A stretch of 64,000 bases of DNA, from NCBI GenBank assembly GCA_003151495.1, contig PLXR01000114.1, positions 49,121-113,120 on the forward strand. Direction: 5' to 3'. A model generated the notes under the pieces. The model saw nothing but the letters and a program-made list of their open reading frames with translations. It did not search any database and was not told the DNA's origin. The translations under genes were made by a program, and so were the position numbers. How positions within the stretch are numbered: the stretch's first letter is position 1; each line of letters starts with the position of its first letter. Of this stretch, positions 20,225 through 33,482 are shown one piece after another. This DNA comes from Opitutaceae bacterium. Its GTDB lineage: Bacteria > Verrucomicrobiota > Verrucomicrobiia > Opitutales > Opitutaceae.

Positions 20225-21475
20225 CTACGCCACCTCGGCCACCGGCCCCTCGTGGAGCGTCTCGTGCACCATGCTTAGGAGCGCCTGCACCTTGAAAGGC
20301 TTGTAGAGGAATGCATTCCCGAATCGCTCCGCCCTCACGTTCTTGCCCGCGCTGGAGAGCCCGCTCATGGCCATGATCTTCGTCCGCGGATTGAGGTGCT
20401 GGACGATGCCCGCCAGGGCGGATCCGTCCAGGTTGGGCATGATCAGGTCGGTGATCAGCAGGCTGATCTCGGTGCTGCGCGTTGCGAAGATCGCGACGGC
20501 CTCGGTGCCGTCCCCGGCGGTCACGACCCGGTAGCCGTTGCGCGAGAGCATCGAAGCGATCATCTCGCGGATGTGGGGCTCGTCATCGACGATCAGGATG
20601 AGCTCCCCCCGCCCGAGATGTCGCTTCGCCTGGACGGCGTCGCTGATCCGCTCCTTGGCCGAGATGTCGGCCGCGGGAAGGAAGACCCTGAAGGTCGTGC
20701 CCCTGCCGGCCTGGGTGTTCAAGCTGATGAATCCGTGGTGGTTCTCGACGATGCTGCGCACCGTCGACAGGCCGAGCCCCGTTCCCTTTCCCGCCTCCTT
20801 GGTGGTGAAGAACGGCTCCCAGATGCGGGAAAGCACATCCGGCGGGATTCCCGAGCCGGTGTCCTCGACCTTAAGGACGACCCATGGTCCCGGGCGGGCC
20901 CCGTCCATCGCCGCCGCGCCCTTCTCGTCGAGGAGGCAGTTCTCGGCGCCGAGGCTAAGCGTGCCCCCCTCCGGCATCGCATCCCTCGCGTTGACGCAGA
21001 GGTTGAGCAACACCTGGTGCATCTGGGTGGGATCCGCCATGATCGGCCAGAGGTCGTCCGGGAAACTGAACTCGACGGCAATGTTCCTCGGGTAGGTCTC
21101 CTTCGTCATCGCGAGCGTCTCCCTGAGGAGGTGCTTGATCTGGACAAGCTGCTGCACGCTCGCCGCGCCGTGTGCGAAGGAAAGGATCTGGCGCACGAGC
21201 TCGACCCCGCGCTCCGCGCTCTTCTCCAGCGAGGTGATGATGCGCAGATCGTCGGCATTGGTGGCATGCTCCCGCAGCACGGGCGCCGCGAGGATGATGG
21301 GAGAGAGGACGTTGTTGAGGTCGTGCGCGATGCCCGACGCTAGCATCCCGATGCTCTCCAGGCGCTGGGCCCGCAGGAATTTCTCCTCGGTGGGACTCTT
21401 GTGGCCCGGGTCCATGCCCGGGGCCGGCTTGGGCTGCGCCTCGCGGCCCTCGTCGCATATCGCCGTCGCGCTCAT
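20225..21475 (-). CDS. Hybrid histidine kinase (HisKA-HATPase-REC) lacking an obvious sensor domain
   Basis: LESIGMLASGIAHDLNNVLSPI, NLCVNARDAMPEGG, DTGSGIP, ILIVDDEPHIREM...LLITDLIMPNLDG. Confidence 0.88.
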   Translation of the reverse strand: MSATAICDEGREAQPKPAPGMDPGHKSPTEEKFLRAQRLESIGMLASGIAHDLNNVLSPIILAAPVLREHATNADDLRIITSLEKSAERGVELVRQILSFAHGAASVQQLVQIKHLLRETLAMTKETYPRNIAVEFSFPDDLWPIMADPTQMHQVLLNLCVNARDAMPEGGTLSLGAENCLLDEKGAAAMDGARPGPWVVLKVEDTGSGIPPDVLSRIWEPFFTTKEAGKGTGLGLSTVRSIVENHHGFISLNTQAGRGTTFRVFLPAADISAKERISDAVQAKRHLGRGELILIVDDEPHIREMIASMLSRNGYRVVTAGDGTEAVAIFATRSTEISLLITDLIMPNLDGSALAGIVQHLNPRTKIMAMSGLSSAGKNVRAERFGNAFLYKPFKVQALLSMVHETLHEGPVAEVA

Positions 21476-21750
21476 GCTCTGGATGCGGGGGGTCCCCGTC
21501 GGGCGGTGCACCCCTCCGGAGGGACCGTCGTGCCCTGGAAAACTTTACGCGGAAAAGGGACCCCCATGATTCGCGTCTGGAGCTCAGTCTGGAGGCCGAA
21601 GTCTTCCATATGGGCAAGCTGGGTGCGTCCGTCAGCACCCTCCACGTCGAATTCTACGTCTTTTTACGTAATTATGACGGAATTTCATCGGACCCGACGG
21701 TTTACCGAACCAAGCTTGAGGTCGATCCGCATCCTTTCTAATTTCCCCAC

Positions 21751-22413
21751 GTGAACATCGTAATCGTCGAAGACCATTTGATGATTCGGGACGTCATTCG
21801 GAAAGTGTGCAGCTCCGATTTCGGATATGACGTGGTGGGGGAGACGGATTCGGGAGTGCAGGCGGTGGAGCTGATCCTCAAGCACCGCCCCGACGCGGTG
21901 ATCCTGGACCTCTCGCTTCCCGACATGGACGGCTTCAACGTGGCCGACCGCGTGCTCAAGGTCATACCCAACCTTCGGATACTGATGCTCTCCTCGCACT
22001 GCGATGACTACACGCTCTTCCGGGTGGAGAAGTCCGGCGTGCACGGGTTCATCGACAAGAACTCGAACACGATCGAGATCCTGCGCGACGCGCTGAAGGC
22101 GATCTCCGAGGGCAGGATTTATTTCTCCCAGGCCTTCCAGACGGCGAGGATGGCTCGACGCTCGGATCCCCGCTCCTTCATCAAGGTCCTCTCTGACTGG
22201 GAACGCGCGATCCTTTCCCTGATAGGGCAGGGGCTCACGGATGAGGAGATCGGCGAGCGCCTCAACCTGTCGCCGCGAACCGTCCAGACCCACCGCAGCA
22301 ACATACTCAGGAAGCTCGACCTAAAGGGCACGCCCAAGCTGATCGCCTTCGCCGTGGAGAACGGGTTCACACAAATCCAGTCGAGGCACGGATCGATTCC
22401 AGTTTATACCTGA
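21751..22413 (+). CDS. NarL/LuxR-family response regulator
   Basis: REC ([26 protein letters not shown]) + LuxR HTH ([43 protein letters not shown]). Confidence 0.9.
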
Positions 22414-26218: not shown

Positions 26219-26355
26219 ACGGTTGGCAAATTAGATACGAAGCGCCGTCTGGGTGCATCGCAGATTACTACGGGAAAAGACGTACCGACCGGCCTAGAAA
26301 TAGGCGATCTAAGAACTCGGCGGGCGGCCTGGATCGGACTTGTTTCATCACCGAC

Positions 26356-26541
26356 ATGAAAAACATAAATCGCATGACACTAGGTACAATCTCAAGCCTG
26401 TTGCTTTCGGCAGGCCTGGCCCGAGCCGCGCAGAGGCTTGACCCGCTCACCAACTCGATCGTCAATCGCAACCTCCAGTCCGGTTCCGCTGAATCACCGG
26501 CAAATTCGTGCGTCGTCCCTTGCCTTTTTGACGCCGAGTGA
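26356..26541 (+). CDS. Small secreted-type peptide, candidate precursor for the adjacent YcaO protein
   Basis: 61 aa MKNINRMTLGTISSLLLSAGLARAAQRLDPLTNSIVNRNLQSGSAESPANSCVVPCLFDAE; Sec-like leader; stop TGA 26539-26541 overlaps GTG start 26538-26540 of the YcaO frame. Confidence 0.5.
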   Translation: MKNINRMTLGTISSLLLSAGLARAAQRLDPLTNSIVNRNLQSGSAESPANSCVVPCLFDAE

Positions 26542-27479
26542 ACCTCGGTCTGCAGCGATCTAAAGTTGGGTTTCCGAAAAGGACCATGATCAGCGTCGCA
26601 GGGTATCGCTACCGCAACATACTCGAGACCGAAGGTGGGCCCGTTAGCCGGGTCTCCCTGCGCGAGTTTCCTGTGTACGGCCGGCAGATGTACCAGGCCA
26701 ACGCCTGGCTTTCGGACAAGGTCGTGTCGCGCAGGAAGAAGTTCGCCCTGTACAGCGACGCGGACGGAACCGGGGCGTCGGAGTCACCGATGGTCGCCCG
26801 CTACATGGCGATCTCGGAGGCCATGGAACGATGGGCTTATCGGGTCAAGGTGCGCGCAAACGACCGGGAGCTATACGGGTTTGACATCGACGAATCCTCC
26901 AACGGCATGGCCGCGTTCCCGGGGATCTTCAACACCGAGGCCCGCCGGCGCGCGCAGCTTGAGGCGGTCGAGCGGGCGAGCATCATCGCTTGGTGGGAGG
27001 GCGCCCTCGATGGAGAGGTGCGCGCAACCGAATGGCCCGGGATTAACGCAATCGTCCTTCCAAGCCCGATTGGGGTCGGGGTCACGGTGATAGCGTTCCG
27101 CGAGGTCCGGTCCGACTGCTTCGCCTACGGCCAGGGGGCGGCGACGGACTTCTTCGGGGCGTGCGAGCGGGCGGTCATGGAGCTTGCGCGAAACGAATAC
27201 GTCCTCGGGCTCCGGCGGGTCTCGCTGGGCCTGGCAGTGCAGGATGCACCCTCCGACCTGTTTGAGCGGCGCTGCCTGTTCTTCTCGTCCGCGGAAGGCC
27301 ATGCGCTCTTCCAGGAACGCCTCGCCAGGAAGGTAGTGGGGCCCAAGTTCAGTTCCGCCATCATCTGCGACACTGAGATCGAGGGCCCTTGGTCGGAGTA
27401 TGCGACGGTGTGGCGCGTCCTCATCAAGCCCTCGTCGACGGAGTTCCTGGTCAATTCAGAGCGGTATTTCTTCTGGTAA
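26538..27479 (+). CDS. YcaO-family protein (divergent, stand-alone)
   Basis: Motifs DADGTGASESPMVARYMAISEAMERWAYR and SSNGMAAFPGIFNTEARRRAQLEAVERASIIAWWEG, GQGAATDFFGACERAVMELARNE match the YcaO ATP-binding signature blocks; alternative ATG at 26586. Confidence 0.78.
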   Translation: MNLGLQRSKVGFPKRTMISVAGYRYRNILETEGGPVSRVSLREFPVYGRQMYQANAWLSDKVVSRRKKFALYSDADGTGASESPMVARYMAISEAMERWAYRVKVRANDRELYGFDIDESSNGMAAFPGIFNTEARRRAQLEAVERASIIAWWEGALDGEVRATEWPGINAIVLPSPIGVGVTVIAFREVRSDCFAYGQGAATDFFGACERAVMELARNEYVLGLRRVSLGLAVQDAPSDLFERRCLFFSSAEGHALFQERLARKVVGPKFSSAIICDTEIEGPWSEYATVWRVLIKPSSTEFLVNSERYFFW

Positions 27480-31967: not shown

Positions 31968-33482
31968 ATGACAAGACTCACCCTTCACACGCCCCGCTTG
32001 CGCAGGGCGGTTCAGCTGGCCTCTGCGCTCGCCCTTGCGGGCGCCTTCGTCGCGATCCGCGCCGAGAAATCCGACCCGACGATCTCCATCAAGCGTGACG
32101 ACCGCCCCGTCCCGCGGAGCGAGTCCGACCGCGTCAGCTACTCCGACGTCGTCAGCCGCGTCTCGCCGAGCGTCGTCAAGATCACGGTCCAGTCCAAGGC
32201 GAAGCGGGTCGAGGCGAAGGAGGGCGACATGCCCGGGCTCGGCGACCCGATGCTCCGGCAGTTCTTTGGCGGGCGCATGCCCGAACTTCGCCAGGAGCCT
32301 ATGAATGGGCTCGGATCCGGAGTCATCATAAGCGCGGACGGCTACATCGTGACCAACAACCACGTGGTGGACGGCGCCGACACCGTCACGGTCGCTCTCT
32401 CCGACGGCCGCGAGCTCCCGGCGAAGGTGGTGGGGCGGGATCCGCTCACGGACATAGCCGTCGTAAAGGTCGAGGCAAAGGACCTCCCCTCTATAACCAT
32501 GGCCGACAGCTCGAAGATCCTCGCGGGCGACCGCGTGCTCGCGATCGGCAACCCCTTCGGCATCGGCGAGACCGTGACCAGCGGCATCGTGAGCGCCACG
32601 GGCCGCAGGGTCGGGATACTCAACGACGTCCACGGCTACGAGGACTTCATCCAGACGGACGCCGCGATCAACCCCGGCAACTCGGGTGGCGCCCTGGTCG
32701 ACGTGAACGGCCGCCTGGTCGGCATCAACACGGCGATCCTGAGCCGCAGTGGCGGCTTCCAGGGCGTCGGCCTGGCGGTGCCCTCGAACTTGGTCGGCCA
32801 GGTGGCCGACAGCCTGGTCAGGACGGGCCGGGTGGTGCGCGGCTTCCTTGGGATCAACATCCAGAACATCACGCCGGCCCTGGTCGACTCCTTCAACCTG
32901 AAGACCCGCGAGGGGGCCCTCGTCGCCGAGGTGACACCCGACAGCCCCGCGGCCCAGGCGGGAATCAAGAGCGGCGACGTCATCACCCGCGTCAACGGGC
33001 AGCCCGTGACCGACTCGGGCAACCTTGCGCTCACGGTGAGCGGACAGGGGCCGGGCAAGAAGCTTGCCTTCGACATCCTTCGCGACGGCAAGGAGGTGAA
33101 GCTCGATGCCACGACCGGCGAGCGACCTGGATCCCCGGGCGCCCCGGGAGGCGCGCTTGCCGCGGACGACGACCAGGGCGTCCTGAACGGGGTGACGGTG
33201 GACGACCTCAACGTCGACACCCGCCAGCAGTTCAACCTGCCTCCCCATGTCCATGGCGCCCTGGTGACGAACGTCGAGGCGGACTCGGCCGCGGCCCGGG
33301 CGGGGATCAGCGCGGGGGACGTCATCCTCGAGATCAACCGGCACCCCGTGAAGTCATCCCAGGACGCGGTGAGCCTCAGCGCCAAGACCGAGAGCAAGAA
33401 GACCCTCCTTCGCCTTTGGTCGCGGGGCTCAACCCTGTTCCTGGTCGTGGACGAATCGGCGCAGGACAAGCCCACCTCTTAG
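31968..33482 (+). CDS. DegP/HtrA-type periplasmic serine protease (trypsin + two PDZ)
   Basis: 504 aa; NNHVVDGA (His), LTDIAVVKV (Asp), AAINPGNSGGALVD (Ser), two PDZ-like domains. Confidence 0.93.
   Translation: MTRLTLHTPRLRRAVQLASALALAGAFVAIRAEKSDPTISIKRDDRPVPRSESDRVSYSDVVSRVSPSVVKITVQSKAKRVEAKEGDMPGLGDPMLRQFFGGRMPELRQEPMNGLGSGVIISADGYIVTNNHVVDGADTVTVALSDGRELPAKVVGRDPLTDIAVVKVEAKDLPSITMADSSKILAGDRVLAIGNPFGIGETVTSGIVSATGRRVGILNDVHGYEDFIQTDAAINPGNSGGALVDVNGRLVGINTAILSRSGGFQGVGLAVPSNLVGQVADSLVRTGRVVRGFLGINIQNITPALVDSFNLKTREGALVAEVTPDSPAAQAGIKSGDVITRVNGQPVTDSGNLALTVSGQGPGKKLAFDILRDGKEVKLDATTGERPGSPGAPGGALAADDDQGVLNGVTVDDLNVDTRQQFNLPPHVHGALVTNVEADSAAARAGISAGDVILEINRHPVKSSQDAVSLSAKTESKKTLLRLWSRGSTLFLVVDESAQDKPTS

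Follow-up and report, generated by a model that had tools for sequence, protein, structure and literature searches.

Within a 64,000-nucleotide stretch of an Opitutaceae genome (hereafter the window), a 61-aa open reading frame and the stand-alone YcaO gene that follows it form part of a conserved module, and a role for this module in RiPP biosynthesis is strongly supported by sequence comparison. A divergently oriented hybrid sensor histidine kinase and a LuxR-type response regulator belong to the same module (Table 1). We lean, modestly, towards reading it as a system that makes, secretes and senses its own YcaO-modified peptide and regulates itself in doing so. The bolder proposition is that it represents a new class of cell–cell signal, namely a YcaO-modified, Sec-exported RiPP pheromone with an HTCS-type hybrid kinase as its receptor, in a self-contained Opitutales circuit with species-specific cores and receptors. 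To this we give a little less than even credence. We regard the module as a RiPP variant with a real chance of being a new kind of signalling system.

A preliminary description of this DNA had proposed a minimal, possibly undescribed system of two genes. The peptide and enzyme were borne out, the YcaO being stand-alone and accompanied by a precursor in 85 of 86 loci. None of the outcomes that the description had named as refuting it was seen: the YcaO match is significant, the peptide is conserved with homologous YcaO genes, and its frame is under purifying selection. The divergent kinase and the regulator had been overlooked, and it is these that change the interpretation most. The open literature, searched for YcaO in combination with Opitutaceae or Verrucomicrobia, pheromones or kinases, yielded no account of a system like this one; subscription and bioRxiv-only work lay outside the scope of that search.

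Table 1. Features of the module and its surroundings, in window coordinates
Feature	Position	Strand	Basis or remark
Soluble histidine kinase with receiver domain, possible accessory	20225..21511	-	Pfam; divergent from response regulator
LuxR/NarL-type response regulator	21751..22413	+	Pfam REC + GerE; tail-to-tail with kinase
Hybrid sensor histidine kinase, 1283 aa	22367..26218	-	Pfam, AF2 sensor model, divergent adjacency
Conserved site ACTACGGGAAAAGACGTA, candidate regulator-binding	26267..26284		About 89 nt upstream of peptide start
Precursor peptide, 61 aa	26356..26541	+	Leader residues 1-31, linker, C-terminal core region
Stand-alone divergent YcaO, 297 aa	26586..27479	+	PF02624, hhalign, conserved residues; start ATG 26586

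A precursor peptide conserved with its enzyme

Judged by its sequence and conservation, the 61-aa frame is a genuine RiPP precursor. Its leader contains a signal-peptide-like helix (..SSLLLSAGLARAAQRLDPL) and is followed by a variable linker and a core region that, as first described, ends in SCVVPCLFDAE. Among relatives, the leader follows a consensus of roughly MKTxxRxxLGxxSSLLLAxGFxRAAxRLDP, and a hypervariable stretch separates it from a conserved Cys motif (CxxPC) at the C-terminus. Column entropy in the precursor alignment averages 1.77 bits in the leader versus 3.12 beyond it, and Cys52 and Cys56 hardly vary (0.64 and 0.00, counting the sequences that have a residue in those columns). 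The leader has been kept in dozens of genomes, which places the peptide far beyond chance. Purifying selection acts on the frame (leader dN/dS 0.04 against L032), while the core is for the most part quicker to change than either leader or enzyme (dN/dS, ten pairs). No NCBIfam or PHROGs model fits the window's peptide.

The preliminary description had asked whether a comparable peptide precedes homologous YcaO genes, and it does so almost without exception. The count of 85 in 86 combines 82 of 83 loci, some of them called by eye where the profile failed, with three loci that a blind search had missed and that were fetched afterwards. That blind search, a six-frame scan of 150 genomes made independently of YcaO (E<=0.001), matched the peptide profile in 48/52 YcaO-positive and 0/98 YcaO-negative genomes (Fisher p ~6e-35, a value that ignores relatedness). 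The four positive genomes that it missed have divergent precursors or candidates. Only L098 lacks a precursor; it is one of two YcaO copies in its genome, and the other copy is accompanied by one. The weakest call is at L099, where a signal-peptide-like ORF is tied to the others solely by the PPP..GD.III(R) tail that it has in common with L219/L220. The gap between peptide and YcaO genes ranges in relatives from -5 to about 250 nt. Two precursors occur in L064, L059 and L222, the second one of L222 (G032) being encoded downstream of YcaO.

A minimal and divergent YcaO

The YcaO blocks noted in the preliminary description are present, and the window's protein matches Pfam PF02624 with E=8.4e-7 to 1.2e-6, above the gathering score. 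The same model was matched individually by 38 of 41 diverse relatives, and a profile of the clade aligns with E. coli YcaO at 90% probability (hhalign, E=1.4e-6), pairing E126/E129/R130 with E. coli E199/E202/R203. Residues S77, E78, E81, E199, R229 and R277 are invariant in the clade, while E126 and E129 are 98% conserved; by eye, E78/E81 correspond to E. coli E75/E78. The replacement of the usual GKG-type motif by GTG, already remarked upon, is real and clade-wide: the GxG motif reads DGTG rather than NGKG, with consensus DGTGT and its two Gly at 100% and 98%. The enzyme is apparently intact, if short and divergent.

Its start needed correction. The preliminary description had the YcaO gene begin at GTG 26538, giving a 313-aa protein whose start codon overlapped the peptide stop as GTGA. 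Relatives do not use this GTG, so the overlap is a coincidence. Conservation instead begins at ATG 26586, which is Met in 93% of 63 relatives and from which they align from residue 1, leaving the two genes 44 nt apart. The sequence AAAAGGACC lies just upstream of this ATG.

YcaO genes of this kind were found in 67/200 genomes of the same family, and a profile of 41 members recovered them in other families of the order Opitutales. Outside that order there were none among 388 genomes sampled across the phylum. As far as these comparisons reach, the clade is divergent, minimal and limited to Opitutales. At the genome level, PF02624 matched just four family genomes in the sample and missed known carriers, G006, G015, G034 and G071 among them. 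Standard mining can therefore overlook a clade so divergent, and this may be why it has escaped notice. The SagD model reached only E=0.11 against the window's YcaO, a profile search of PDB sequences matched no YcaO, and an AF2 model built from a shallow alignment of 9 close sequences (pLDDT 54) gave no meaningful Foldseek match.

The lack of a partner protein, also noted earlier, extends well beyond the window. TfuA was absent from all 80 family genomes searched, and the neighbourhoods of about 60 loci held no conserved E1-like, ThiF, dehydrogenase or SagC/SagB-like gene. The absence of TfuA led us to reject TfuA-type thioamidation.

A paired and rapidly diverging sensor kinase

The hybrid kinase is composed of a propeller and Y_Y_Y periplasmic sensor, a transmembrane segment, HisKA, HATPase and REC domains and a weak HPt (the Pfam matches to Y_Y_Y and HPt fall slightly under curated cut-offs). 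It lies divergently adjacent to the peptide–YcaO pair in 74 of the 75 loci with enough upstream sequence for the comparison, L096 being the exception. The response regulator occupies the same position in most family loci. Its gene overlaps that of the kinase tail-to-tail by 47 nt (22367-22413), stops included, and the same overlap occurs in 11 loci.

In a comparison of six genomes from the genus, the module kinase keeps 38-58% identity in its sensor, versus 67-82% in the kinase part. A control paralogue of the same architecture and genus, which has no accompanying peptide, shows 51-77% in the sensor versus 59-81% in the kinase part (five of the six genomes are common to both comparisons). The module's sensor is therefore unusually fast-changing for its protein, as would be expected of a receptor tracking a changing ligand. 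We set aside family-wide co-evolution of core and sensor as main evidence. With kinase and YcaO distances controlled, the partial correlation between core and sensor is weak (r=0.22), and that between leader and sensor is higher (0.45). Being weak and not specific to the core, it falls short of proving that cores and receptors are matched.

The chief rival to self-sensing is a kinase that responds to an environmental glycan or stress by turning on production of an antibacterial peptide modified by YcaO, with no sensing of the product. Many YcaO RiPPs are antibiotics, and the hypervariable cores would also suit an arms race. In an AF2 model (pLDDT 75), the sensor matches its solved relatives, the periplasmic domains of BT3049 and BT4663 (Bacteroides HTCS sensors), and BT4663 senses heparin/heparan sulphate. 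This likeness counts against self-sensing. Nevertheless, we consider an antimicrobial of this kind unlikely, given that no immunity gene or exporter is conserved nearby at about 60 loci, that the pairing with one kinase is near-obligate and one-to-one, and that the sensor diverges so much faster than that of the paralogue.

A conserved site upstream of the operon

In 10/10 loci of the window's genus and the nearest one, the peptide start is preceded at 86-90 nt by a block like ACTACRGRAAAANNCGTA. In other clades, CTACCGGAATTCCGGTAG and similar palindromes occur ~65 nt before the peptide start, with 7-10 paired bases, a number that shuffled sequences rarely or never reach. For the genus of the window itself, dinucleotide shuffles lend a palindrome no support, and the site there is defined by conservation only. 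We infer that the upstream site is a candidate binding site of the regulator.

An exact site occurs once in the window's genome, in the module itself, and genomes with the palindrome have a handful each, against almost none for a reversed control. Sites elsewhere are often 67-73 nt from an ORF start, and searching with the site as a guide to a regulon returned scattered sites with no coherent function. Some palindromes lie far from the module, and a CTACCGGAAATCCGGTAG palindrome at L227:3445 adjoins a gene resembling a REP-associated tyrosine transposase. Not all may therefore be regulator sites, and some copies may be mobile.

Repeated cores and a Cys/Thr position

In several genera the core is repeated, in two to four copies. 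The precursor of L088 ends in four copies of AFCDTVCNF, and L146 ends in three of DTCTWPCE. L134 and L141 each have three copies of a unit containing GCAQLPCYHRDF, L047 has two of ACTAACH(F/Y)S, and L219 has two of AWEQPPGVPP(C/R)PGGGIIIK. Multi-core precursors are a hallmark of RiPPs, as in the cyanobactins, and together with the conserved leader, the variable core and the adjacent enzyme they give the module the features expected of one.

Cysteine occurs in the tails of 77/85 precursors, often as CxxPC or CxxxC. At least one of the eight loci with a Cys-free tail, L064, has a tandem Cys-bearing precursor (..GPSCVVLQ before ..GGSAASRLS). Single-Cys cores are numerous, and other cores have no Cys but Thr at that place. 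Within a clade of 39-40-aa precursors, one position is either Cys or Thr (YPCEV, WPCEV, FPTEV, YPTEV), and L143/L145 display the swap between YPCEV and FPTEV. Such an exchange at one position fits a YcaO that forms azolines. A further core type, found beside the same YcaO clade in L219, L220 and L099, is proline-rich, ends in (G)G(x)III(K/R) and has no conserved Cys.

The frequency of Cys also raises the prospect of a metal-binding RiPP, chalkophore- or bufferin-like, whose modified core would bind copper or another metal while the kinase responded to the metal or the metallopeptide. A methanobactin model matched the fourfold repeat, very weakly and below cut-off (E=0.011), and Sec-type leaders are known for bufferins (PMC12452194). 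We hold this reading to be improbable in view of the many single-Cys cores, those with Thr instead, and the want of any recurrent metal-uptake or TonB-receptor gene at about 60 loci.

A leader resembling a signal peptide

Export is suggested by the N-terminus. A simple hydrophobicity cut-off is exceeded by 70/85 precursors, and 66 of those have an AxA-like pattern after the helix; the window's own peptide, at 1.65, falls just below the cut-off of 1.8. In the clade of short precursors (L132, L140, L143, L145, L147) the N-terminus is hydrophobic only to a slight degree, which means that not all of the peptides can be exported by Sec. An unsecreted peptide that stays in the membrane and regulates the neighbouring kinase, while YcaO adjusts this contact by modifying the peptide's C-terminus, would agree with the helix being the best-conserved part and with sensor distance tracking leader distance better than core distance, but it is a poor prospect given the tandem cores, which it can hardly account for, the AxA-like pattern and the weak helix of that clade. 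A gene for an HtrA/DegP-like periplasmic protease, so judged by sequence, lies a few kb downstream at 31968-33482; it is not a conserved neighbour of the module.

A proposed circuit

We propose that a self-sensed peptide would be made and perceived as follows. YcaO would bind the conserved leader of the precursor and, in an ATP-dependent reaction, activate the backbone amide at the C-terminal Cys/Thr to form an azoline, with the loss of 18 Da. Azoline chemistry at these conserved residues is our tentative prediction, to which we assign not quite an even chance. An amidine or thioamide is less likely, the thioamide because TfuA is absent from the genomes searched. The hydrophobic, AxA-ending segment of the leader would then route the peptide into Sec, where signal peptidase, perhaps with other general proteases, would free the core. 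Such a route would account for the lack of a dedicated exporter or protease gene.

In the periplasm, the divergent hybrid kinase would bind the mature peptide with its double-propeller/Y_Y_Y sensor, initiating a phosphorelay from HisKA to REC to HPt and on to the LuxR-type regulator. Acting at the conserved site upstream of the peptide–ycaO operon, the regulator would close a positive feedback loop. The product would be made and sensed by the same cell, and bacteria could possibly communicate with each other through it.

Relationship to known systems

It is mainly in Gram-positive bacteria that modified peptide pheromones are known to have kinases of their own. The agr and ComQXPA systems and lantibiotic autoinduction likewise place a precursor, a modifying enzyme, a fast-diverging kinase and a regulator in one compact locus, with probable self-regulation as a further point in common. 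Kinase and regulator are linked to peptide and enzyme as in peptide quorum sensing, and the sensor evolves faster than the kinase part. The present module differs in belonging to a Gram-negative order, in using YcaO instead of AgrB, ComQ or LanBC, and in having a propeller HTCS-type sensor rather than a membrane-helix receptor; self-sensing itself we infer. BT3049 and BT4663 similarly fuse a double propeller and Y_Y_Y periplasmic sensor to HisKA, HATPase and REC, whereas the module kinase adds a C-terminal HPt, works with a separate LuxR regulator and neighbours a RiPP operon, not a polysaccharide locus. A conserved cassette of peptide, enzyme, receptor and regulator in a Gram-negative order would bring peptide signalling within reach in bacteria that have received little study, and specificity could be tested on more than 80 precursor–sensor pairs matched by nature.

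Among YcaO systems, this module is one of the smallest, and it would couple a Sec-type leader to YcaO chemistry. In bottromycin and the ItfB amidine peptides, too, the YcaO acts without TfuA or an E1-like protein and its gene neighbours that of the precursor, but their clusters include exporters, proteases and tailoring enzymes (PMC10352776); the YcaO described here is shorter (about 297 aa), distantly related and paired with a sensor kinase. The bufferins and oxazolins, which are MNIO RiPPs, likewise have a signal-peptide-like N-terminus instead of a classical leader and a Cys-containing core, but here a YcaO takes the place of the MNIO and its partner protein, copper genes were not seen nearby and the cores are repeated (PMC12452194). 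The catalytic core residues of YcaO are held in common with TfuA/YcaO thioamide systems and SagCD-type LAPs, from which the module is set apart by the absence of TfuA in the genomes searched and of a conserved SagC/SagB-like neighbour. The E1-like/ocin-ThiF partner that marks a LAP/TOMM, joined by a dehydrogenase where azoles are made, was likewise no conserved neighbour at about 60 loci.

Accessory and paralogous kinases

Further kinases accompany the module. The soluble kinase of Table 1, encoded next to the response regulator in the genus of the window, is a HisKA-HATPase-REC relative, and in several genera a soluble REC-PAS-HisKA-HATPase-REC kinase is found directly downstream of YcaO (in L058 and L065, from +884 of the YcaO start). 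The window's own genome (C23) also encodes a paralogous propeller hybrid kinase without an adjacent peptide (L167:1457-5203). This is possibly a second receptor, or may reflect mere shared ancestry; close orthologues occur in the nine genomes of the genus that have the module and in none of its four YcaO-negative genomes.
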